Positions 27,280 through 41,972 of a DNA stretch of 64,000 nt are shown here, one piece after another. Under the pieces are notes generated by a model. The model had not been told where the DNA came from. It saw only the letters and a list, made by a program, of their open reading frames with translations, and made no database searches. The translations under genes were made by a program, and so were the position numbers. Numbering within the stretch: the stretch's first letter is position 1; each line of letters begins with the position of its first letter. Source of the DNA: Carnobacterium inhibens subsp. inhibens DSM 13024 (GTDB taxonomy: Bacteria > Bacillota > Bacilli > Lactobacillales > Carnobacteriaceae); NCBI RefSeq assembly GCF_000746825.1, contig NZ_JQIV01000006.1, forward strand, positions 1,480,784-1,544,783, given 5' to 3'.

Positions 27280-28623
27280 ATGGACAAAAATGAAAAAAAT
27301 AGGAATAAAGGCTGGATAAGAAAAATAGATTCTATCAGCTTGGAAGAAGTAAATAGTTCAGTAAAAATCCCACCAGCAAATGCTTCTTTTCTAAGAAAGT
27401 TGCTTGCTTTTATGGGTCCAGGCGCATTAGTGGCTGTTGGGTATGTTGATCCGGGTAATTGGGCGACATCTATAGAGGGTGGATCTGAATTTGGCTATAC
27501 CTTATTAAGTGTCATATTGATTGCTAGTTTAATTGCAACCTTAATGCAAGAAATGGCTGCGCGATTAGGAATCGCCACAAGTATGGACTTAGCTCAAGCA
27601 ACTAGTGCTTCTGTCGGAAAAAAATTATCTTTTTTCTTATGGATTTTAACAGAAGTTGCCATTATCGCTACCGATATTGCTGAGGTTATTGGATCTGCTA
27701 TCGCTCTAAAACTATTGTTCAACATTCCCATCCTTTTAGGTGTGACAATCACAACATTAGATGTGCTCTTGTTGCTTTTATTGCAGAAACGCAGTTTTCG
27801 TATTATTGAAAGTGTCGTTATTATCTTAATGGCTACGATTTTTATCATTTTTGCATATGAAATTTTATTATCCAATCCAAATGTCACAGACTTAGTTCAA
27901 GGTTATATTCCTAGTTCAGATATTGTTACAAACCCTTCGATCCTATTTGTAGGTTTAGGAATTTTAGGTGCCACAGTTATGCCGCATAATCTATATCTGC
28001 ATTCTTCAATTATTCAAACGAGAAGCTATGAACGTACAGAAAAAGGAAAAAAAGAAGCGGTAAACTTTGCTCGAATCGATTCTATCTTTTCTTTAACCAT
28101 TGCTTTTTTGATTAATTCGATGATTTTAATTTTAGGTGCGTCAGCTTTTTACGGCAACGGTCAAGTTGTCAGTGGAATAGAAGATGCTTATGCTTTACTT
28201 GCACCAACTATTGGCGCATCTATAGCGAGTACCTTATTTGCAATTGCTCTACTAGCTTCTGGCCAAAACTCAACCATCACCGGAACATTAAGCGGTCAGA
28301 TTGTTATGGAAGGCTTTATTCATTTAAGAGTTAAGCCATGGGTACGCCGAATCATCACAAGATTACTAGCTGTAATTCCAGTATTTATTGTGACCATTAT
28401 TGCCGGAGAAAATGGAGCTACCGATCTTTTAATATTCAGTCAGGTTATTTTAAGTATGCAACTCCCCTTTGCACTTGTTCCACTGGTTTTATTCACCAGT
28501 GATAAACATAAAATGGGAAGTTTCGTAAACTCAACTTGGGTCAAAATAGTGGCCTGGACAGCTACTGTTATCATTATTTGTTTAAACGTTTATTTAGTAG
28601 TCTATACATTGATTGGCCTGTAA
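27280..28623 (+). CDS. mntH: Nramp-family divalent metal transporter (MntH)
   Basis: 447 residues, about 11 membrane helices, taking up Mn(II) (and Fe(II)) with protons. Helix 1 carries the metal-binding DPGN motif (VGYVDPGNWATSIEGG) and helix 6 the MPHN motif (GATVMPHNLYLHSS). A polar cytosolic N terminus of about 40 residues precedes helix 1. The ribosome site is weak (GGAT). It is monocistronic, ending at a terminator. Confidence 0.94.
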   Translation: MDKNEKNRNKGWIRKIDSISLEEVNSSVKIPPANASFLRKLLAFMGPGALVAVGYVDPGNWATSIEGGSEFGYTLLSVILIASLIATLMQEMAARLGIATSMDLAQATSASVGKKLSFFLWILTEVAIIATDIAEVIGSAIALKLLFNIPILLGVTITTLDVLLLLLLQKRSFRIIESVVIILMATIFIIFAYEILLSNPNVTDLVQGYIPSSDIVTNPSILFVGLGILGATVMPHNLYLHSSIIQTRSYERTEKGKKEAVNFARIDSIFSLTIAFLINSMILILGASAFYGNGQVVSGIEDAYALLAPTIGASIASTLFAIALLASGQNSTITGTLSGQIVMEGFIHLRVKPWVRRIITRLLAVIPVFIVTIIAGENGATDLLIFSQVILSMQLPFALVPLVLFTSDKHKMGSFVNSTWVKIVAWTATVIIICLNVYLVVYTLIGL

Positions 28624-30951: not shown

Positions 30952-31595
30952 TTAGACAGCATCAATTGAGTCAGTTGGATCTACTTCTTCTAAATTCTCA
31001 TACAGCTGTGGATAATCATGACACTTCATATTTCTAGATTTACATACTTCTTTTCCAAAGGAGATCATAGATTGGTGTGCTCTTCCCCAGTATTTAGCTG
31101 GGATAATTTCTGTCACACGCACTTCAATTTGTTTGGGTGTGGCATTTTCTTCTACTATCTTGTGATGCTTGCAGATTCGTGCGACATGTGTGTCCACTGC
31201 AAAAGCCTCTTGGCTAAAGGCAACATTCAATAATATATTAGCTGATTTAGGTCCAATTCCAGTTAATGATTGAAGTTCCTTACGTGTACTTGGAACTTTT
31301 CAAGTAATTGACAACTGCTTTTATAAATATACTTTGCTTTATTCCGGTAGAGCCCGACTGTTTTTATGTATGATTCAATTTCTTCAGGTGAAGATTCGAT
31401 AACAGCTTGAGGATTTGGATAGCGTTCAAATAATTGGTCTGTCACTTTAGCGACAGAAATATCTGTTGCCTGAGCACTTAATATAACGACCATCAACAAT
31501 TGAAATGGATTTTGGTAACGCATCATTGGGACAGCATCAGGATAAAGTTTCATAATTTCATAGATAACGTGTTGAGCGGCTTCTTTTGTCAGCAT
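30952..31595 (-). pseudogene. Second endonuclease III gene, frameshifted by a 13-bp deletion
   Basis: A near copy of the intact nth at 4416-5057, starting with the same MLTKEAAQHV. At about 31299, 13 bases present in the intact gene (between GGAACTTT and CAAG on the plus strand) are missing, flanked by TTT repeats as in slippage. The frame shifts after SSCQLLEKF and stops soon after. Downstream, in another frame, AFAVDTHVARI (catalytic Asp) and the C terminus remain well conserved. Adding 13 nt gives 657 nt, exactly 219 codons. The iron-sulfur cysteines are partly lost here as well. Confidence 0.9.
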
Positions 31596-31835: not shown

Positions 31836-32675
31836 ATGAGACAGAAAGACGAAGAAACGCTCAATGATTTATATAATCTAATCCTCAATCCTGCGACTCG
31901 TGAATGGGAACGGTCAGCACTATCTTCGACCAAAAATGCCTTAGAAGAGGATGCAACTATTGACGACCAACTTTCAAAGCTTGAAGCTAAATTACGTCCA
32001 CTCGCATTAAGAAACAACTTAACGCCTGACGTGACAGATTTTTATAACAGCATAACTGGAAATGCTAGTGCCGACACTCAATTTGATTTTACAAAACACT
32101 CCATTGATGATTTAACTTACCAAGACTCTGCGGTATTCGCAGGAGGCTGTTTCTGGTGTATGGTAAAACCTTTTGAAACCAAAAATGGAATCATTTCAGT
32201 CTTATCTGGGTACACCGGTGGACAGATGGATCATCCCACTTATGATCAAGTGAGCGGCCAATATACAGGGCATGTCGAAGCAGTTGAGATTATTTTTGAT
32301 ACGCGGATCCTACAGTATGAAGAACTGGTAGAACTTTATTGGCAACTAACAGATCCTACAGATGCGTTTGGTCAATTTCAAGACCGTGGCAGTCAGTACC
32401 GTCCGATTATTTTTGTTCGAAATGAAGAACAACGAAAAATTGCTGAAAAGTCAAAACAGCAGTTAGCGGAATCCGGCAAATACAAGCGTCCAATCGTTAC
32501 ATTAATTGAGCCAACGTCTGTATTTTGGCCAGCAGAAAACTTCCACCAGCAATTTTATAAGAAAAATCGAAAGAGATACAAAAGAATTGAGCGTTCCCGT
32601 CAACAATTTTTAGCCTTCCAGCGTTTACAGGGTAAAATCAGGACAGAACTTAATCATTTTACACGAAAACCTTAA
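31836..32675 (+). CDS. msrA: Peptide methionine sulfoxide reductase MsrA with N-terminal helical extension
   Basis: 279 residues. The C-terminal about 180 are MsrA: catalytic GGCFWC (about residues 105-110), [17 protein letters not shown], and a GHVEAVEI strand. DRGSQYRP and NFHQQFY also match. It reduces methionine-S-sulfoxide. The first about 85 residues form a separate helical domain ([37 protein letters not shown]). This resembles the small immunity-type helical proteins of lactic acid bacteria, a similarity judged by eye. AAGGAGG precedes the ATG. The last about 35 residues are very basic. Confidence 0.9.
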
Positions 32676-32875: not shown

Positions 32876-33469
32876 GTGTTGGAAACAATTTTAAGTTTAT
32901 ACATTACATTAATGTCAGTCATTTTTGCAGGTGTTGCCAATATGGCTTTTTGTAAATACCCTACCTATCAACGCTTAAATATCCCAATGGATGCCGGACG
33001 AATATTATCAGATGGTAAGCGATTATTTGGTCAAAACAAAACTTGGAAAGGCTTTATTGGTATGATTCTTTTTGGCGGCCTATCTCAGATTGTCTGGGGA
33101 CTCGTTCTAAAAACTATTCCTTCCCTTGAATCGCTGAATCTATTCTACGACGTCTATGCCAATTCTATACTAACGAATCTTTGGATTGGACTTTTGTTAG
33201 GGCTAGCCTATATTGTTTTTGAATTACCAAATAGTTTTATGAAACGCCGTTTAGAAATCATGCCTGGCAAACCAGCAAACAATCAATGGAAATGGTTCTT
33301 TATTTTTATTGACCAAGCAGATTCATTGCTGGGGTGTGCTTTAATCGTAGCAGTTCTGGTTCCCATAAGTTGGACTCAATTTTTCGGCTTCATCATTTTA
33401 GGAGCCGGTACTCATATTGTGATCAATCAGTTATTGTATTTTTTAAAATTAAGAAAAAATCCATTCTAA
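32876..33469 (+). CDS. CarS-family (CDP-archaeol synthase-like) cytidylyltransferase
   Basis: 197 residues with about five membrane helices. The archaeal CarS (PF01864/DUF46) hallmarks are present in order: FAGVANMAF, GRILSDGKRLFGQNKTWKGF (the DGKRLxGxxKTWKG signature), then NSFMKRRLEIMPGKPA and FIDQADSLLGCAL, matching the archaeal SFIKRRL...DQLDFVLGAL block. CarS activates an unsaturated archaeal lipid phosphate with CTP. The start is GTG 32876 with AGAGGA 7 nt upstream. It is probably the first gene of the cluster ending at 41972, supplying a CDP-activated lipid to the downstream phosphatidyltransferase. Confidence 0.85.
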   Translation: MLETILSLYITLMSVIFAGVANMAFCKYPTYQRLNIPMDAGRILSDGKRLFGQNKTWKGFIGMILFGGLSQIVWGLVLKTIPSLESLNLFYDVYANSILTNLWIGLLLGLAYIVFELPNSFMKRRLEIMPGKPANNQWKWFFIFIDQADSLLGCALIVAVLVPISWTQFFGFIILGAGTHIVINQLLYFLKLRKNPF

Positions 33470-33573
33470 TTATTTTAGATGTACAAAGAGGTGTATAGAC
33501 AATCTATTGGACTTTAATAGAAACTGCAGAAACAAATCTGCGGTATGGCGGTAAAATAAACGCGTTAATCGAT

Positions 33574-36024
33574 TTGTCTCAATTAGGCCTTCAGGTACCT
33601 AAAGGCTATTTCATTTCAGAAGATAAGCTCACTTCACTATGGATGGAAGTAATCCCAGAACTAGTCAGATTAGAAGCAACGGATCAACCTAGCCTACCAA
33701 CTTATGAAACGATTGTTCAACGTCTGGACCAGTTGAGTTTTCCAACGGAATTGCAGACAGAAATAAGCGATCTTATGTCTTCTAATAAAACGTATATTGT
33801 ACGAAGCAGTGGTCTGATGGAAGACCACGCGTCTACTTCTTTTGCTGGACAGTATGACACTATTGCAAATTGTACGACGACTGATGGCATTATTGCTGCA
33901 TTAAAACAGTGTATCGCCTCTCTTTTTAAGCCCGCTAGTTTAAATTATTGGCAGACACAACAATTGGGTATTCAAAATCTAAGGATGTCTATCATTATTC
34001 AAGAACAGGTTTCAGCAGTGTCCAGTGGTGTGGCATTTACTCTCAATCCTTTGACAAATAATGATCGCCAGTTAACGATTGAAGTAGTAGAAGGCGCAGG
34101 AGAACAGCTTGTTAGCGGTTTGGTTACCCCTGAACAATTGACAATCGACTGGTTTTCAACGATTGGACCAACAAATGTCTCCCAAATTTTATCTTTAGAC
34201 CAGTTGAAGCAACTTCAAAAACAATTGCTTTTGATTGCAACCTTTTATGGCTATCCTGTCGATGTAGAGTTTTGTTTCAGCAAAGATTCCTTATTTTTCT
34301 TGCAAGCTCGTCCGATTACAACCATCCGTCGAAAAATCAATGAAGGCAATTGGACCACTACGAATTTTCGTGATGGCGGTGTCGCTGCGCAGCCTTGTCC
34401 AGGATTGATGTGGAGTTTATACCGCGAATCATGGCAAACAACGTTAGAAAAATTTCTGATTCAAAATAAGTTATACGATTCAACAAACATCAAGCAGCTT
34501 TCCATCAATCATTTTGCAAGACCTTATTGGAATATTGGTGTTGTCAAAGAAGCCATGTCACGAATACCTGGCTACATTGAACGCGAATTTGACGATGAGC
34601 TTGGCGTTTATAAAAATTATCAAGGAGACGGCTACAAAAGCAAGCTGACAGTTAAGACAATCAGCCATTTACTAACTGTGGCGACTCGCATCACTAAAAC
34701 GACTCAGCAGCAGCGTCAAACGGCAGCACAGCAACACAAACAACTATTAGAGACTTATCAATCAATCGATAAAAAAATCCAATCGCTGTCTTCCATAACA
34801 GATCAGCAAGACATTGAAATGTTATGGGAGTCCGTCATCAATGATGCTTATTTGCAAAGTGAACAGACTTATTTTTGGCAAGTATTTGTCAACACGGTAC
34901 AGCTTTCCATGAAAAAAACGGCATTATTGAAAAAATTGCCATTAGAGACCTTTTTCCAGCTCATCTCAAAACTAGGAGAAGTCTCACATGTCCAACCGCT
35001 ACGTGATTTGTATGAAATCGTTGAAATCATCGTTACAAACGATAAATATAAGCAGGAATGGATGACGAACAATCCATTAGAAATCAATACGTTATTAAAC
35101 GAACAACCCAATCGACTAGATGCACAACGGATCCAAGCTTTTCAAGAAACATTTGGCTATCATTCAAACCGCGAACTGAATCTATTGGTGCCAAGTTATA
35201 GTGAAGACCAACAGCTAGTGGTTGATTTACTGAAAGAATATGTGGATCATCCAGAGAAACTCACGACAGTTCAACACGCCTTCTCCCAAACGTTGACAGA
35301 TAAACAAATGGAAAAACTGATAGAGCCCTATGTCTCTAAATGGCAACGGATTAAATTAATGAAGGATATCAAGATGCTGCGCGAATTATTGTGGTGGCGT
35401 GAGGAGTTTAAAGATGTATCAACTCGTTTTTACCATTTGATCCGTCAAATCACTTTGAAATTAGGGGAAAGGTATTCCAAACTAGGGTATATTGATAATA
35501 TGGAAGACCTCTTCTATCTTGAGAAAGAAACGATACACTCTTTTATCACTAACCAAGTCTCTCAAGAAAGTCTCAAGAAATCTGTGCAGGACAATCGCAT
35601 CTATTGTCAGGCTTATCGCCATTTTGTTCCTCCAGGAGATTTAATGGAGACAAGTGTTTCCGCAGAGGTAGAGAATCTTTTGGCAAATAAACCATCCAGT
35701 TTAGCTGGAATCGGTGCGAATGACGGGATTGTTTCTGGAAAAATAAGAATTCTGCTAGATCCTAAAGACATCAACCAGTTGGAGGCTGGCGAAATCTTGG
35801 TGACTCGCTTTACGGATACAGGATGGAGTCACGCTTTTGGTTCCATTAAGGGGCTGATTACAGAAACTGGCGGTGTTTTATGCCATGCCTCAATTGTTGC
35901 CAGAGAATTTGGTATTCCAACAATCGTTTGTGCAACACAAGCTACAGAGAAGTTAAAAACAGGTATGAATGTTACAATGAATGGAACAACGGGTGAAATT
36001 ACAATTCAAAAAAGTGGGTGCTAA
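33574..36024 (+). CDS. PEP-synthase/rifampin-phosphotransferase-like enzyme, copy 1
   Basis: 816 residues from TTG 33574. N-terminal ATP-grasp domain (YIVRSSGLMEDHASTSFAGQY, about 70-90; LQARPI near 249), a large middle region, and a C-terminal swivelling phosphohistidine domain with GGVLCHASIVAREFGIPT (His about 772). Such enzymes split ATP to AMP and Pi and pass the beta-phosphate to an acceptor. The frame stays open upstream to 33499 and encodes RYGGKINALIDL, the family's usual N-terminal GGK motif. No ATG, GTG or TTG exists there, so the real start may be a rare codon such as ATC 33502, 8 nt after AGAGGTG. The acceptor is unknown. Confidence 0.82.
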   Translation: MSQLGLQVPKGYFISEDKLTSLWMEVIPELVRLEATDQPSLPTYETIVQRLDQLSFPTELQTEISDLMSSNKTYIVRSSGLMEDHASTSFAGQYDTIANCTTTDGIIAALKQCIASLFKPASLNYWQTQQLGIQNLRMSIIIQEQVSAVSSGVAFTLNPLTNNDRQLTIEVVEGAGEQLVSGLVTPEQLTIDWFSTIGPTNVSQILSLDQLKQLQKQLLLIATFYGYPVDVEFCFSKDSLFFLQARPITTIRRKINEGNWTTTNFRDGGVAAQPCPGLMWSLYRESWQTTLEKFLIQNKLYDSTNIKQLSINHFARPYWNIGVVKEAMSRIPGYIEREFDDELGVYKNYQGDGYKSKLTVKTISHLLTVATRITKTTQQQRQTAAQQHKQLLETYQSIDKKIQSLSSITDQQDIEMLWESVINDAYLQSEQTYFWQVFVNTVQLSMKKTALLKKLPLETFFQLISKLGEVSHVQPLRDLYEIVEIIVTNDKYKQEWMTNNPLEINTLLNEQPNRLDAQRIQAFQETFGYHSNRELNLLVPSYSEDQQLVVDLLKEYVDHPEKLTTVQHAFSQTLTDKQMEKLIEPYVSKWQRIKLMKDIKMLRELLWWREEFKDVSTRFYHLIRQITLKLGERYSKLGYIDNMEDLFYLEKETIHSFITNQVSQESLKKSVQDNRIYCQAYRHFVPPGDLMETSVSAEVENLLANKPSSLAGIGANDGIVSGKIRILLDPKDINQLEAGEILVTRFTDTGWSHAFGSIKGLITETGGVLCHASIVAREFGIPTIVCATQATEKLKTGMNVTMNGTTGEITIQKSGC

Positions 36025-36026
36025 AG

Positions 36027-36635
36027 ATGTTTATTGGAGAATATGGAAAGTTTGTCTATTTAACCTATTTTGGGACCGCCCTGTCGTTAGTAGCAATGCA
36101 TTTCATTATTCAAGGCGAGATGATTTGGGCGATGAGCTGCTTTATTGTGAGCGGGCTCTGCGATTTATTTGATGGCATGGTTGCGCGTTCCTTTGATAGA
36201 ACAAAAGCGCAAGAACAATTTGGTGTAGAGATCGATACTTTATGCGATATGATCAGTTTTGCGGCGTTACCTGCAGTTTTATTGATTTCACAAGGTCGCT
36301 TCCCTTTAGTGAACATTTTTTTAGCCATTATTTATGTCATCGCTGCTGTTACAAGACTGGCTTATTTCAATCGTGAAACGAAGGACAATCTGGCAGAAAG
36401 AGCGACTTATTTTCGGGGAGTTCCGGTTACCTATGGTGCACTTGTTTTTCCGGTCGGTTATTTGGTAAGTGAATGGTTTTCAAGTGGAAGTTTTCAATAT
36501 GTTCTTCTACTGCTTGCTCCTATATTGGCTTTTCTATTCATCTGGGATATTAAGATTCCTAAACCCAATCGAGTGATGTATCTCTTTTTCTTAGGACTGG
36601 CGCTCGTGACTTTATTCGGATTATGGAGATTATAG
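36027..36635 (+). CDS. CDP-alcohol phosphatidyltransferase (phosphatidylserine synthase type)
   Basis: 202 residues with about six membrane helices. The CDP-alcohol phosphatidyltransferase motif is complete: FDGMVARSFDRTKAQEQFG then VEIDTLCD, with all catalytic Asp residues. The spacing between AR and G is 11 residues rather than the usual 8. A decarboxylase of the phosphatidylserine type follows after one base, so serine is the likely acceptor and the product a phosphatidylserine or analogue. The start at ATG 36027 is chosen over a GTG at 36018 that overlaps the preceding gene. Gap to that gene is 2 nt. Confidence 0.86.
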   Translation: MFIGEYGKFVYLTYFGTALSLVAMHFIIQGEMIWAMSCFIVSGLCDLFDGMVARSFDRTKAQEQFGVEIDTLCDMISFAALPAVLLISQGRFPLVNIFLAIIYVIAAVTRLAYFNRETKDNLAERATYFRGVPVTYGALVFPVGYLVSEWFSSGSFQYVLLLLAPILAFLFIWDIKIPKPNRVMYLFFLGLALVTLFGLWRL

Positions 36636-36636
36636 T

Positions 36637-37503
36637 ATGGTAAAGGTCTATCAGCGTGAAACGAAATCAATCATTGAACCTAAGGAATATCAAGCAGCAT
36701 GGCTAAAACGATTGTATCAAACAAAGTTGGGAAACGTTTTGCTTTCCATGGTTACTTCTCCATTATTTTCAATCGTGTGGACAGCTATTGACCACACACG
36801 ACTTTCTAAAAATAAAATCGCTCCGTTTGTCAAAGAATATGACATCAACTTAAGCGATTACGAATCAAAAAACTACCAGTCTTTTGCAAAATTCTTTATC
36901 CGAAAATTAAAAGCGGCTAACATTCACGTAAGTCCGTCTAATCGCGTTTGCGCTGTTGCGCAAGCGAAACTATTAACTGTTCCCATTCATAGTGATCAGA
37001 CCTTTACCGTCAAAGGACAGAACTATCGTTTAGAAGATATCCTTCAAGACCGTTCTTCAGCTGATTATTACGAGGGTGGCACACTATTTATTTACCGATT
37101 AGCAGTCGATGATTACCATCGTTATCTGGCTAGTGAAACAGGCTCGGTTATTCATCGTCGCAAAATCCACGGAAAATTACATACAGTCAGAGAAATCGCC
37201 CAACAACACTTTCAATTATTCAAAGAAAATAAAAGAGAATATTGTCTACTTGAAACAAAGAATTTAGGGATGATCATGCAGATGGAAGTTGGAGCGCTTT
37301 TGGTTGGAAAGATTTATAATCAACCATTCGATAGTTATCAGCGAGGTAAAGAAAAAGGCTGGTTTAGCCTAGGTGGGTCCACTATACTGGTGGCTTATCC
37401 AAAGGGAACAGTAACCGTTGATCAAGATATTGATTATTATTCTAATCTAAATATAGAAACTCAAGTCAACATAGGGGAAGGAATTGGTCTGAAAACATGC
37501 TAA
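36637..37503 (+). CDS. psd: Phosphatidylserine decarboxylase family protein
   Basis: 288 residues. The pyruvoyl-forming self-cleavage motif is FSLGGSTILVAYP (LGGST, about residue 248), so Ser becomes the pyruvoyl group. The conserved DDYHRYLA segment supplies the catalytic His, and GQNYRLEDIL is the usual substrate-domain strand. It decarboxylates phosphatidylserine (or an analogue) to the ethanolamine lipid at the membrane. The position directly after the CDP-alcohol transferase (1-nt gap) is the classical PssA-Psd pair. Aminophospholipids of this kind are unusual in lactic acid bacteria. Confidence 0.88.
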   Translation: MVKVYQRETKSIIEPKEYQAAWLKRLYQTKLGNVLLSMVTSPLFSIVWTAIDHTRLSKNKIAPFVKEYDINLSDYESKNYQSFAKFFIRKLKAANIHVSPSNRVCAVAQAKLLTVPIHSDQTFTVKGQNYRLEDILQDRSSADYYEGGTLFIYRLAVDDYHRYLASETGSVIHRRKIHGKLHTVREIAQQHFQLFKENKREYCLLETKNLGMIMQMEVGALLVGKIYNQPFDSYQRGKEKGWFSLGGSTILVAYPKGTVTVDQDIDYYSNLNIETQVNIGEGIGLKTC

Positions 37504-38402
37504 AGAGATTATTAACTTACTATAAAGAAATGTACCCACTGATTCCGCGATTCCTATTAGCAATCATCTACTTTTTTGAAATCTACTTTATCTTACTCCT
37601 CAACGTAGGAAAGTCAGATTTTTCAATAGGAATACAAGAATGGACCGGAGTTTGGACAATATTTACATTTTTGATGGCGCTTAGGATCGCAGATGATTTT
37701 AAAGACTACGAACACGATCAACGACTATTTCCTGATCGAGCACTGCCTTCTGGTAGAGTTAAGAAACGTGATTTAGCTATTGCTTTAGCTGTCATGGTCA
37801 CGATCACTGTTGTGCTCAATGTCATCTTTATGAATAATATAGGCTGGTTTCTCTTTTTATTCATCTATGGAACCTTGATGTCGCTGTGGTTTTTCAGCAA
37901 AGCTAAAATTCAAAAATCATTGCCTTTAGCACTTGTTACCCATAATCCTGTGATGATGGTCATGAATATCTATATCATCACATTCGTTTGTTACAAATAT
38001 CAATTGCCATTGCTATCCCTACCTACTGTTTTGCTGGCATTTACGATGTATTTCCCAAGCTTGATATGGGAAATCAGCCGTAAAATAAGAGCACCCAAAG
38101 ACGAGACAGAATATGTGACATATTCCCAACTCTTCACTTATCAAAAAGCCACACGTTTCGTTCAAGTGCTGACGATTATTGATATTTTAACGAATTTTAT
38201 TTTATTATGGAATATTTCAAAAATCGGCGTCGTTGTTCTATTGGCAAATGTCATCTGGATGACGATTCAATTTCAACAATTCATTCATGATCCGACACGT
38301 TTCAATATCAAAAATCGAGTGGAACGTTATACCTACATTACGGAAACCACGATGGTTCTTTCGGTTACAGCACATCTATTTATACAGGGGTTTGTCCGAT
38401 GA
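37497..38402 (+). CDS. UbiA-family prenyltransferase
   Basis: 301 residues, about eight to nine membrane helices. First Asp-rich motif: RIADDFKDYEHDQ (about 61-73), followed by PDRALPSGRV as in chlorophyll-synthase/DGGGP-synthase-like UbiA proteins. A second site reads WEISRKIRAPKDETEYVTYS (about 189-208). These bind a prenyl diphosphate through Mg. The overlap with psd is 7 nt and with the next gene 4 nt. The acceptor may be the lipid made by the neighbours; no quinone pathway genes are nearby. Confidence 0.85.
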   Translation: MLKRLLTYYKEMYPLIPRFLLAIIYFFEIYFILLLNVGKSDFSIGIQEWTGVWTIFTFLMALRIADDFKDYEHDQRLFPDRALPSGRVKKRDLAIALAVMVTITVVLNVIFMNNIGWFLFLFIYGTLMSLWFFSKAKIQKSLPLALVTHNPVMMVMNIYIITFVCYKYQLPLLSLPTVLLAFTMYFPSLIWEISRKIRAPKDETEYVTYSQLFTYQKATRFVQVLTIIDILTNFILLWNISKIGVVVLLANVIWMTIQFQQFIHDPTRFNIKNRVERYTYITETTMVLSVTAHLFIQGFVR

Positions 38403-40900
38403 AACAACTCACTAACTTTCACCGTCGATCAGTAGGTTCAAAAGCAGCTAATTTGCATCTCATGAAAGAGCAGGGCCTCGTCGTTCCTCCTTTTTCCGTT
38501 TTTTCATTTGATTTTTTTGATCAAACAGATGTACTTACCTTCTTGCAAGAACAGCAAGAAGCATACCATACAGGAAACGATACATTGAATGCATTAAGTC
38601 AACGATTGCAACAGGAATTTAAGGCGAAATTTTTGCAGGAAGATTTTACAGCTATCCATGATTTTAGCAGACACGCATCTGGCAAGCATACCTACTCTGT
38701 GCGATCTTCAGCAAATGTTGAAGACGATGCCTCTGCCTCATTTGCTGGACAATTTTCTACGCGTTTGTTTGTTGAAGTAGATGATTTAGTTGAGGCTGTA
38801 GAGGAAACTCTTTTGTCGTTGTACCAGCCCTCTGCATTGAGTTACTACTTTGAAAATGGCATCTCGTTAGAAGCTGTTAAATTATACGTCATTCTTCAAG
38901 ACATGATTTCAGGAGATTTATCTGGGGTCTATTTTACCGCGAATCCTCAAGGGTTATTGAACGAACAGTTAATTGTTGTCGGCGTTGGCGTTGGTAGCGG
39001 GATCGTTGAAGATAAAGTAGATACAACCATGGTTACGATCCATTCTGATGATCAATTATCTTACTTTGAAACTTCTGGTACTTCTCCAATCTTAACAGAA
39101 AAACAACAAGTCGAGTTAGAAGATATGGCGGAGAAAGTAACGGACATCTTTGGTCCGCGAATGGATATTGAATTTACTTTTTTGAATGACCAACTGTACG
39201 TTTTACAGGCACGTCCTATTACAAAATTGCCTGCAGAACCGGTCACCATTTTAGATAATAGCAATATCGTGGAAAGTTATCCCGGAACAACGACTCCTTT
39301 GACATTCAGTTTCATTCAAGAAGCTTATGGGAGTATTTTTAGAGGTTTGGCCAAGCGTATGCTGAAAAATGATACACAGACACTTCAATCATTTGAGCCT
39401 ACTTTTCAAAATATGATTGCTCAAGTAAACAGCCGTGTATACTATCAAATCAATAATTGGTACAAATTACTTCATCTTCTGCCCTTTTCTAAGCAGATCA
39501 TCCCTATTTGGCAAGATATGTTAGGTGTTCAAGCCACCGATATCTCTGCAATTACAGTAAAAATCAGTCGCTCAACTCGACTGAAAATCATGGGACGCAT
39601 CATTAAGAGTTTCATCCAAGCGCCTCGTTCAATGAAACAACTCGATTCGGATTTTGAAGCGATTTCTGAACATTTCAATCAAACGTATACGCGAGAGGCT
39701 TCATTTGAAGAACTTCATCAATTATTTGAGCAGATCAAACGACAAGTATTGGAACAATGGGATGTCACTTTGATCAATGATCTCTATGCGTTTGTTTATA
39801 CTGGGCTGTTAAAAAAAGTCTGTCCGCCTGAAGAAGTTCAAGAGGAAATAGCCGGGATCGAACAAATTGAAAGTATGAAGCCAGTGTTTGAACTGAATAA
39901 AATCATTTATACCATTCAGGAAGAACAACATAGCGACTATCGAAAAATAATTGAAAGCATTTCTTCGGAACTTGCAGCTGATTTTATTGAGACAGATTTG
40001 CATCCAATCACACAAGATATCCGACGTTTCATTCAACAATTTGGAGATCGAGCTCCAGAAGAATTAAAATTAGAGACGGCAACCTTTCGTAGTCATCCTT
40101 TTTCATTAATTCAACTGATCCAACAGCAATTGGAATTGCCGCAAACAGCGATGCGTACCGAATCTAAAGCAACGGCAACAAACAAATCACGGAATCCATT
40201 GGTGAATGGGCTGAAGAAACGCGCTATGACAGGGATCAAATACAGAGAAAGTTCTCGCTTGAATCGTACGCGAATTTACGGAATGATGCGACTCATCTTT
40301 ATCACTATGGGCGAGCAGTTGGTAAAAGAAAACCGTCTTGAGCAATCAGAGGATGTGTTTTATTTAACGATGACTGAACTTTTCGATTTGGCTAGCCATA
40401 GAGATCTTTCAAATATGCAAACAGAGATACAAAAACGGAAGCATAAACGATTAGTAGATCAGCAATTACCTGCATTCAGCCGGTTGATCTATGCTGGAAG
40501 TATTTTCGAAAAATATCCACAAACGATCAATCAGCAGCAGACAGTCTCGACCAACCAGCAGGACTTCCAAGGAATCGGTTGTTCAAAAGGCATAGTTCGA
40601 GGGCAAGTTTTAGTTGTCGAAGATATTCAAGCCGTTAATGTTCAGCAATCCTATAATAAAATTATCGTCACAAAAATGACGGATCCAGGATGGGTGTATT
40701 TACTGACCCAAGCAAAAGGGATCATTGCGGAAAAAGGCTCGTTATTATCTCATACAGCAATCATCTCTCGCGAATTAGGTATTCCTTCTGTCGTCAATGT
40801 CCAACAAGCCACACAACAACTAACGACTGGAGAATGGATTGAAATAAACGGACAGACCGGCCTGATCAAACGTTTGGAGGATGAAAATGATTACTCATAA
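38399..40900 (+). CDS. PEP-synthase/rifampin-phosphotransferase-like enzyme, copy 2
   Basis: 833 residues, same architecture as the enzyme at 33574-36024 but only distantly similar. The N terminus begins with the GSKAANLHLM motif. The ATP-grasp segment is YSVRSSANVEDDASASFAGQF (about 100-120), with YVLQARPITK near 274. The C-terminal phosphohistidine loop is EKGSLLSHTAIISRELGIPSVV (His about 784). Domain order and length are those of rifampin phosphotransferase and PEP synthase. It is coupled by ATGA overlap to the UbiA gene. Having two such enzymes in one operon suggests two phosphorylation events or substrates. Neither is identified. Confidence 0.85.
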   Translation: MKQLTNFHRRSVGSKAANLHLMKEQGLVVPPFSVFSFDFFDQTDVLTFLQEQQEAYHTGNDTLNALSQRLQQEFKAKFLQEDFTAIHDFSRHASGKHTYSVRSSANVEDDASASFAGQFSTRLFVEVDDLVEAVEETLLSLYQPSALSYYFENGISLEAVKLYVILQDMISGDLSGVYFTANPQGLLNEQLIVVGVGVGSGIVEDKVDTTMVTIHSDDQLSYFETSGTSPILTEKQQVELEDMAEKVTDIFGPRMDIEFTFLNDQLYVLQARPITKLPAEPVTILDNSNIVESYPGTTTPLTFSFIQEAYGSIFRGLAKRMLKNDTQTLQSFEPTFQNMIAQVNSRVYYQINNWYKLLHLLPFSKQIIPIWQDMLGVQATDISAITVKISRSTRLKIMGRIIKSFIQAPRSMKQLDSDFEAISEHFNQTYTREASFEELHQLFEQIKRQVLEQWDVTLINDLYAFVYTGLLKKVCPPEEVQEEIAGIEQIESMKPVFELNKIIYTIQEEQHSDYRKIIESISSELAADFIETDLHPITQDIRRFIQQFGDRAPEELKLETATFRSHPFSLIQLIQQQLELPQTAMRTESKATATNKSRNPLVNGLKKRAMTGIKYRESSRLNRTRIYGMMRLIFITMGEQLVKENRLEQSEDVFYLTMTELFDLASHRDLSNMQTEIQKRKHKRLVDQQLPAFSRLIYAGSIFEKYPQTINQQQTVSTNQQDFQGIGCSKGIVRGQVLVVEDIQAVNVQQSYNKIIVTKMTDPGWVYLLTQAKGIIAEKGSLLSHTAIISRELGIPSVVNVQQATQQLTTGEWIEINGQTGLIKRLEDENDYS

Positions 40901-41972
40901 TTCTTTAAAAATCATTCCAGTGTTTTCAGGTGAAAAATCAGAAACCGATTTCCTGCAATTCCCACAACGAATTTATAAAAAAGAGGAATTGATGCAATCC
41001 GTCTCAGAGGAACAAGCACAGATCAGTGGACAGCATCCGTTGAGTCCAACCTATACTTTCCAAGCATTCAATGGTTACCAAGAGGGTCAAATGGTAATTC
41101 GCGGGGCTCTAATAAAACCGCATCACTTGGAAGACTATTACTTAGGGTATTTTGAAGCAGTAGATGATGTAACCGTCATGATTCAGTTTATCCAAACACT
41201 GAGTGAAAAAGTACGAGACAAAAATGTGCAGCGCATCATTGGTCCTGTTCAAGGAAGTTTCTGGCTAGGCTATCGAATGAAAGTTAAAGGATTTGAACGA
41301 GCGCCATTTACGAGTGAACCGCACAATCCATCGTATTATCCGAAGTTATGGCAAGCGGCCGGTTTTAAAGAGGTCGAACACTACACGTCAAATTTTTATC
41401 GTTCGATTCCACCTCAATATGAATCAAAAAAACTAGCCAAACGTTATCAATTATTTGTGGAAAAAGGTTATCGTTTTGTTTCTCCTAAACCAGAAGATTG
41501 GCCAACCGTTTCGCTTGAAGTCTTTGAACTTTTAAGAGTACTCTACAAAGACTTTCCATTGTATCAAGAGGTTACAGCTGAACAGTTTAGTCAAATTTTT
41601 GCCGATTTAAAACAAGTGATCGATTTTTCTATGGTGAAGTTGGCCTACAAAGATCAGCAGCTTGTTGGCTTTTTGATTACTTTGCCGGATCATGGCAATT
41701 TGATTTATCAAAAAATGAATCTGCTAAATCTAGCGAAAATTATTTATAAAAAATGGCGTGCTAAACGTTATGTCATTCTGTATTTAGGTGTAGACTCTAA
41801 GCATCTGGGTTTGGGATTGGCGATGTCCTATCCGGTTTTCAAACAGGTAAAACAACGCAAAGCAGAAGTAGTTGCTGCATTGATCCATGAAAATACGGTA
41901 ACAAACCGATATGTGACAGAGATGCAGGAAGATTCTCATGCTTACAGCTTATGGATGCTGGAATTAAAGTAA
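40887..41972 (+). CDS. GNAT-like acyltransferase, last gene of the cluster
   Basis: 361 residues from ATG 40887, preferred over ATG 40881 because GGAGG (40876-40880) needs the spacing. The middle part reads IIGPVQGSFWLGYRMKVKGF and TSEPHNPSYYPKLWQAAGFKE. This pattern of GP...HNPxYYxxLxxxxGF recurs in YghO-like N-acyltransferases. The C-terminal GNAT-like half has GVDSKHLGLGLAMSYPV and NTVTNRYVTEM. It may N-acylate the amino head group made by psd; this is inference. It overlaps the previous gene by 14 nt and ends 70 nt before a terminator. Confidence 0.7.
   Translation: MITHNSLKIIPVFSGEKSETDFLQFPQRIYKKEELMQSVSEEQAQISGQHPLSPTYTFQAFNGYQEGQMVIRGALIKPHHLEDYYLGYFEAVDDVTVMIQFIQTLSEKVRDKNVQRIIGPVQGSFWLGYRMKVKGFERAPFTSEPHNPSYYPKLWQAAGFKEVEHYTSNFYRSIPPQYESKKLAKRYQLFVEKGYRFVSPKPEDWPTVSLEVFELLRVLYKDFPLYQEVTAEQFSQIFADLKQVIDFSMVKLAYKDQQLVGFLITLPDHGNLIYQKMNLLNLAKIIYKKWRAKRYVILYLGVDSKHLGLGLAMSYPVFKQVKQRKAEVVAALIHENTVTNRYVTEMQEDSHAYSLWMLELK

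Follow-up and report, generated by a model that had tools for sequence, protein, structure and literature searches.

In this study, we have analyzed a seven-gene operon of Carnobacterium inhibens subsp. inhibens DSM 13024 that lies within a 64,000-nucleotide stretch of contig NZ_JQIV01000006.1 (the whole of which is called the window here), and we propose, giving the reading about even credence, that its product is a membrane phospholipid with an amine head, built on an unusual lipid alcohol with two chains. An earlier note, made from the letters of this DNA alone, did not foresee the observations that shaped the proposal: a core (UbiA, PPS2, and GNATl) that occurs without the head-group genes, the interchange of PPS1 with the kinase DgkA, and the apparent kinship of GNATl with ceramide synthase (CerS). 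The genes are as follows.

32876 to 33469, + strand: CarS, a CarS-like CTP:lipid-phosphate cytidylyltransferase (PF01864), the proposed maker of a CDP-lipid
33574 to 36024, + strand, frame open upstream to 33499: PPS1, a phosphoenolpyruvate (PEP) synthase/rifampin phosphotransferase-like three-domain phosphotransferase (PPDK_N and PEP-utilizers), the proposed lipid-alcohol kinase
36018 to 36635, + strand: CDPOH, a CDP-alcohol phosphatidyltransferase of the phosphatidyl/archaetidylserine-synthase type (PF01066)
36637 to 37503, + strand: PSD, phosphatidylserine decarboxylase family, with a G-x-S motif (PF02666)
37497 to 38402, + strand: UbiA, a UbiA-family prenyltransferase of the PRK13592 type (NF010118); core
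38399 to 40900, + strand: PPS2, a second PEP-synthase-like phosphotransferase (NF004882), the near-constant partner of UbiA; core
40881 to 41972, + strand: GNATl, a tandem-GNAT acyltransferase of 363 amino acids (aa), apparently related to bacterial ceramide synthase (AlphaFold fold, hhalign); core

The open reading frame (ORF) list of the window gives seven ORFs on the + strand between 32876 and 41972, at the location first described. The spacing bears out the earlier picture of a seven-gene cluster in which genes 2 to 7 overlap or nearly abut: CarS and PPS1 are 104 nt apart, and the later intervals run from -20 to +1 nt (PPS1-CDPOH, -7; CDPOH-PSD, +1; PSD-UbiA, -7; UbiA-PPS2, -4; PPS2-GNATl, -20), so that genes 2 to 7 touch. 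Pfam and NCBIfam reached a family assignment for six of the seven genes, all except GNATl, and the lipid head-group families that had been read from motifs were recovered as CarS, CDP-OH_P_transf, and PS_Dcarbxylase. No structured RNA reached the gathering threshold between positions 28000 and 46000, and between 32600 and 42200 neither promoter-like patterns (21 versus 27.8 expected) nor terminator-like patterns (12 versus 7.3 expected; standard deviation, 2.6) were informative.

The modular architecture emerged from the comparison of many loci. When 84,980 species genomes were scanned with UbiA, 261 relatives were recorded, and loci were taken from the best 80 of them; in all, 90 loci were mapped after 4 duplicates had been dropped, every one found through UbiA, so that detached head modules fall outside the sample. 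The first cluster gene to follow UbiA was PPS2 in 84 of the 85 loci with more than 3 kb downstream, and GNATl lay within the block in 71 of the 73 with more than 6.5 kb downstream. Locus L063 is an exception on both counts, with other genes between UbiA and PPS2 and GNATl further along; L074 is the second exception for GNATl. Eighty loci had 4.3 kb or more of upstream sequence, and 68 of them carried CarS. Fifty-nine of these 80 loci carry CarS, CDPOH, and PSD, one (L068) has CarS and PSD without CDPOH, eight have CarS without CDPOH or PSD, and twelve have none of the three; CDPOH and PSD counts combine two locus mappings, and both genes occur in 59 of the 60 PSD-bearing loci, L068 being the exception. 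When the CarS profile was run against 24 whole genomes, many of them metagenome bins of unstated completeness, the 12 core-only genomes gave no match and the 12 with a CarS locus gave one each. Because there are core-only loci and genomes without any CarS, we conclude that UbiA, PPS2, and GNATl form a self-standing core to which the kinase, CarS, CDPOH, and PSD are added as an optional finishing or head module. Genes that by eye resemble BlaR/BlaI regulators (protein clusters c22 and c37) adjoin core-only clostridial loci, in six loci at most.

The cluster is inherited as a unit. A profile search of 395 genomes of the order gave 15 strong UbiA matches (E < 1e-70), 9 of them over the NF010118 cut-off, and 6 weak ones; the GNATl profile gave 16 strong and 2 weak matches in the same genomes. 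All 15 strong-UbiA genomes carry GNATl (Fisher p 3e-26, kinship not corrected for). The sixteenth genome, G560, holds a split GNATl and the end of PPS2, with no UbiA match in the order search or in the 14.4 kb around, a remnant that looks like a decaying cluster. Gene order is identical in the other 14 strong-UbiA genomes, although PPS1 is absent from 5 of them, and this shared order makes the cluster more than a chance arrangement. The suggestion that the genes are kept together has therefore stood: conserved neighborhoods in these 14 genomes and in the 90 loci contradict the possibility that homologues always occur apart. In a sample of 299 genomes from the phylum, no genome other than that of the window passed the NF010118 cut-off, and there was one more weak match; in the family sample 4 of 18 genomes, the window's included, had NF010118 matches. 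The carriers among the best 80 of the 261 UbiA relatives include Streptococcus sanguinis, S. gordonii, S. cristatus, S. sinensis, S. ferus, and S. moroccensis, as well as Desemzia, Enterococcus sp. CU12B, Abiotrophia, Fundicoccus, Vaginisenegalia, and many gut Clostridia, mostly metagenome bins; the distribution is wide but patchy. The window's UbiA had no match in the virus contigs and plasmids searched. No description of the cluster was found among the matches listed in the literature searched (titles and the starts of abstracts, with preprints and subscription papers outside its range), in keeping with the earlier note, which knew of no described pathway with this combination.

In many Clostridia a gene of about 115 to 190 aa lies directly before CarS, and the three that were scanned are DgkA-type kinases (DAGK_prokar, PF01219; 79 to 90 bits). 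The 68 CarS loci comprise 39 with PPS1, 24 with DgkA, 5 with neither (L034 to L037 and L059), and none with both, and the 12 CarS-less loci have neither gene (Fisher p 8e-14, kinship not corrected for). On a quick UbiA tree of 79 rows with long branches, PPS1 and DgkA were exchanged at least three times, and starred branches place L096, a locus with DgkA, among PPS1 loci. Since the two interchange across loci, both probably phosphorylate the same lipid alcohol, which would let CarS activate it. PPS1 is thus likely to be a lipid-alcohol kinase, and the earlier idea that the phosphotransferases act on an alcohol has become a probable one.

Family models in NCBIfam name proteins of this kind PEP synthase, and PPS2 scores 1008 bits against NF004882 (cut-off, 850). 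However, PPS1 consists in Pfam of PPDK_N and PEP-utilizers domains and no other, PPS2 of the same two with two subthreshold unrelated matches, and in neither did Pfam match the C-terminal PEP/pyruvate TIM-barrel domain. The curated rifampin phosphotransferase (RPH) model gave 247 bits for PPS1 and 202 bits for PPS2 (cut-off, 999), and both were also far under the cut-off for PigC, which, like RedH, is a ligase related to these proteins. The missing barrel and the low scores rule out a true PEP synthase or a rifampin resistance enzyme, and with scores so far below the curated cut-offs the RPH and PigC names should not be transferred. Listeria RPH is the best PDB sequence match of both proteins and the best fold match of the predicted PPS1 model (pLDDT 85; TM about 0.4 to 0.5). 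PPS1 and PPS2 share with RPH, PigC, and PEP synthase-like enzymes an ATP-binding domain, a large central region, and a C-terminal swivelling His domain; unlike RPH and PigC, they have lipid enzymes as genomic partners, and the substrate proposed for PPS1 is a lipid alcohol. Residue H771 of PPS1, which we take from the family to be catalytic, does not vary among 19 aligned sequences. The TTG at 33574, taken as the start of PPS1, lacks conservation, two close relatives (L026 and L038) having lost it, and the frame is open for 25 codons upstream to 33499 without an ATG, GTG, or TTG where the relatives start; PPS1 either starts at a non-AUG codon or is entered by a frameshift from the 12-codon ORF at 33479.

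GNATl had no Pfam or NCBIfam match at E values up to 0.1, and its profile found nothing better than E 0.47 among PDB sequences. Its AlphaFold model (pLDDT 91.9) has a tandem GNAT fold, and the best PDB fold matches are tandem GNAT proteins, including acetyltransferases. A tblastn search against plasmids returned 28 distant records, of which 12 loci were examined. In four (Streptomyces, Pseudomonas, Rubrobacter, and Aureispira) the GNATl relative lies near an alpha-oxoamine-synthase-type enzyme; that of Pseudomonas sp. BYT-5 exceeds the NCBIfam serine palmitoyltransferase cut-off (618 versus 500), and the other three have serine palmitoyltransferase as their top model at scores below it. The BYT-5 locus also holds an acyl carrier protein, an epimerase, a fatty acyl-AMP ligase, LptF/LptG, and an acylglycerol kinase and resembles the published Caulobacter ceramide region (PMC11324152). 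Of the other relatives examined, one has CDP-alcohol transferases, LptF/G, and nucleotidyltransferases around it, one belongs to a UbiA-PPS operon, three belong to ThiF operons, two stand alone, and one is at an unannotated locus. Alignment of GNATl with six relatives (three near serine-palmitoyltransferase-type genes, two from ThiF operons, and one alone) by hhalign gave a probability of 100 and an E value of 4e-42 over 353 columns at about 17% identity. Judged through these relatives rather than through an experimentally proven CerS sequence, GNATl falls within the wider CerS family, and we infer that it would transfer a long acyl chain to an amine. In many clostridial clusters an AMP-binding ligase (two were scanned) stands before or after GNATl, as expected of an acyl supplier. 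In three Rhizobiaceae plasmids (L125, L129, and L135) the GNATl relatives occur in a conserved order: unknown, ThiF, unknown, GNAT, unknown.

The nearest described system is the ceramide and phosphosphingolipid pathway of Caulobacter (Spt, AcpR, AasR, CerS, and CerR, with the kinase CC_1160, CC_1161, and CC_1159). In that pathway CerS is reported to be followed by a ceramide kinase, a CDP-diacylglycerol-synthase-like protein, and a CDP-alcohol-transferase-like protein, and which of the latter two comes first is unsettled there (PMC11324152). To that extent, both systems have a CerS-related acyltransferase, an AMP-ligase (in many relatives of the cluster), and kinase, CTP-transferase-like, and CDP-alcohol-transferase-like head genes. 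Unlike the Caulobacter pathway, the cluster has UbiA and PPS2 and a serine/ethanolamine-type head; serine palmitoyltransferase or another alpha-oxoamine synthase had no match in the window's genome, the seven genes included, and a search confined to the cluster found no CerR-type reductase or dehydrogenase among the seven genes. The known sphingolipid pathway accordingly does not fit, failing on serine palmitoyltransferase in the window's genome.

The head-group enzymes belong to clear families. CarS is the sole PF01864 match in the window's genome (64 bits; cut-off, 22) and is below the NCBIfam equivalog cut-off for CDP-archaeol synthase (74 versus 148), and its KT, ELPNS..KRR, and DQ.DS residues are invariant in 20 aligned cluster sequences. 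CDPOH matches PF01066 with 52 bits (cut-off, 22), its best NCBIfam models being archaetidylserine synthase (81 bits; cut-off, 240) and pssA (71 bits; cut-off, 107), and PSD matches PF02666 with 140 bits (cut-off, 22). Residues G246 and S248 of PSD, part of what we take to be the G-x-S self-cleavage motif, do not vary across an alignment of 20 sequences, of which 18 belong to clusters. The CDPOH gene and that of this G-x-S proenzyme lie side by side, as in the phosphatidylserine synthase (PSS)/decarboxylase route, and the serine/ethanolamine-type head suggested earlier has held up on the PSS and PSD families. We are confident, short of certainty, that the module acts in the order kinase, CarS, serine transferase, decarboxylase. 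Archaeal CarS is reported to favor unsaturated isoprenoid lipids over fatty-acid phosphatidic acid (PMC9385802), and CarS in place of CdsA suggests a nonstandard lipid.

UbiA scores 26 bits against Pfam, under the cut-off of 34, and 503 bits against NF010118, over the cut-off of 443; that model is an equivalog titled just "prenyltransferase." Its residues D66, D70, D74, E192, K196, and D202 are invariant in 10 aligned sequences. None of the seven cluster genes encodes a dedicated prenyl synthase, and numbers of PF00348 prenyl synthase matches overlap between 15 genomes with the cluster (1 to 4) and 16 without it (1 to 3). Two cluster genomes (G351 and G612) have a single PF00348 match, which makes farnesyl diphosphate an economical guess for the prenyl donor.

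The scheme that we propose is graded by step, and its substrates and products are all predictions, as distinct from the genes, families, conservation, modularity, PPS1/DgkA replacement, and GNATl homology described above. UbiA would transfer a prenyl chain, probably from farnesyl diphosphate, to a small polar acceptor that bears an amine; PPS2 would use its ATP and His domains to phosphorylate or activate the acceptor or the product; and GNATl, as a ceramide-synthase-like enzyme, would place an acyl chain on the amine. The core would then yield an alcohol that takes the place of diacylglycerol or ceramide. That this alcohol is both prenylated and acylated is an even call; that it is specifically an N-acyl amino-alcohol is a doubtful, tentative suggestion. 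By family, PPS1 would phosphorylate this alcohol, CarS would convert the phosphorylated alcohol to a CDP-lipid, CDPOH would exchange CMP for serine, and PSD would decarboxylate the serine head to ethanolamine.

An independent variant of the core bears on this scheme. A plasmid of Roseinatronobacter sp. S2 (L134, 150 to 8134) carries an operon of UbiA, PPS, DUF3419, a 439-aa protein with no Pfam match, GNAT, and AMP-ligase. Its PPS resembles PPS2 (295 bits) more than PPS1 (146 bits), its UbiA exceeds the Pfam cut-off and aligns with that of the window across 166 columns at 26% identity, and the GNATl profile recognizes its GNAT (E 6e-15). A strong match to DUF3419 is reported for BtaA, which acts in betaine-lipid synthesis (PMC6642084). 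BtaA/DUF3419 is not among the window's seven genes, where CarS, PSS, and PSD would fill the head-group role. A different head-group enzyme on the same core is as expected if the core makes a diacylglycerol-like alcohol, and the product of the Roseinatronobacter operon is possibly a prenyl betaine lipid. The UbiA-PPS pair may be used more widely. Two Streptomyces plasmid loci with PPS genes (L136, 7355 to 14764, and L137, 4669 to 14991) are possible secondary-metabolite clusters: in S. clavuligerus the neighbors of PPS include a weak UbiA match (19.6 bits; cut-off, 34.2) and genes of the AfsA and isoprenylcysteine-methyltransferase types, and in S. durmitorensis they include AfsA-type, P450, and ketosynthase genes.

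Several points weigh against the proposed phospholipid. The six relatives aligned with GNATl were themselves found with GNATl and so are no independent draw, the GNAT family is broad, with other relatives in ThiF operons or alone, and, given the low identity, this breadth, and the acetyltransferases among the best fold matches, a short acyl group is possible. The window's cluster lacks the AMP-ligase, which elsewhere is present in some loci and missing in others, with 11 changes on the quick UbiA tree. Three of the 15 cluster genomes have a serine palmitoyltransferase relative (34 to 35% identity) elsewhere, and there are two weak matches. An oral lipidomic survey that covered S. sanguinis ATCC 10556, a strain with the cluster in its genome (L042), reports phosphatidylethanolamine as very low and as commoner in Gram-negative bacteria (PMC11052126); an unusual lipid could have been overlooked by that survey. 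Finally, the exclusion of PPS1 and DgkA partly follows phylogeny on a tree with long branches, and five CarS loci have neither kinase. It might thus be argued that PPS1 is not a kinase for the substrate of DgkA and that their exclusion, largely clade-specific, is lineage history; with both kinases never together in a CarS locus, neither one in a CarS-less locus, and L096 nested among PPS1 loci, we regard this as unlikely.

Other products have also to be considered. The head module might supply ordinary phosphatidylethanolamine from diacylglycerol, the core product being unrelated: kinase, CarS, PSS, and PSD could form a complete route of this kind, the PSS and PSD families are clear, and DgkA-type kinases act on diacylglycerol. 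However, 68 of the 80 loci with enough upstream sequence (all found via UbiA) have head genes attached to the core, CarS replaces CdsA, and phosphatidylethanolamine was very low in the survey just cited. In addition, the window's genome has another pair of CDP-alcohol transferase and PSD outside the window (L118, 5242 to 10809, and around), accompanied by two VTT-domain proteins and two glycosyltransferases, so that ordinary phosphatidylethanolamine may be made elsewhere; ORFs that look by eye like two-component and transposase genes lie near it. With the head module optional and the core constant among loci chosen through UbiA, plain phosphatidylethanolamine as the sole purpose is disfavored, and we consider it improbable. 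The earlier note had instead pointed to the archaeal ether-lipid set, in which UbiA would be a digeranylgeranylglyceryl phosphate (DGGGP) synthase and CarS, serine synthase, and decarboxylase would lead to archaetidylethanolamine. The CarS, UbiA, archaetidylserine-synthase-like, and PSD families are indeed common to both, and DGGGP synthase is the only PDB profile match of UbiA (E 6e-5). However, UbiA reaches 16 bits against NF009521, the model for DGGGP synthase (cut-off, 296), and 25 against the prenyltransferase model NF009523 (cut-off, 269), and geranylgeranylglyceryl phosphate synthase (PcrB family, PF01884), which forms the first ether bond, had no match in any of 16 genomes (15 with the cluster and 1 with the remnant) in a search that did recover the positive controls, Bacillus subtilis and four archaea. 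DGGGP already carries a phosphate, which would make a kinase before CarS superfluous, and the CerS-type acyltransferase would have no place. Membership in that pathway was rejected on the lack of a PcrB match in these 16 genomes, the claim is not supported, and an archaeal-type ether phospholipid is very improbable. A secreted or signalling small molecule, with UbiA and PPS2 making a prenylated natural product with a phospho-head and no membrane lipid, would accord with the two Streptomyces loci and with the PigC and RedH ligases as PPS relatives; against this, CarS, PSS, PSD, and DgkA are membrane-lipid enzyme families and GNATl appears CerS related, and we think it quite unlikely.

Two further features lie upstream of the operon in the window. 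An ORF at 31836 to 32675 has an Enterocin-A-immunity-like N terminus (65 bits) followed by a methionine sulfoxide reductase domain and may be a gene fusion. At 30952 to 31595 on the minus strand an endonuclease III-like gene is apparently split into a 110-aa ORF with an HhH-GPD match and a 92-aa ORF that by eye is the C-terminal part, possibly through a frameshift.

In conclusion, the amine-headed phospholipid proposed here could belong to a sphingolipid-like class made without serine palmitoyltransferase, in which a prenylated amino-alcohol base, the product of UbiA and one PPS-type enzyme, is N-acylated by a relative of ceramide synthase, phosphorylated by a second PPS-type enzyme that would represent a new family of lipid kinases exchangeable with DgkA, and finished with phosphoethanolamine, found in Lactobacillales and gut Clostridia and with a betaine-headed alphaproteobacterial cousin; we put this wider idea forward as a speculative one. 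If true, it would mean that a lipid class has been overlooked in human-associated bacteria (oral S. sanguinis, S. gordonii, and S. cristatus and gut Lachnospiraceae and Ruminococcus), that ceramide-like chemistry occurs in an organism without the known sphingolipid entry enzyme, and that PEP-synthase-like proteins gain a role as lipid kinases.

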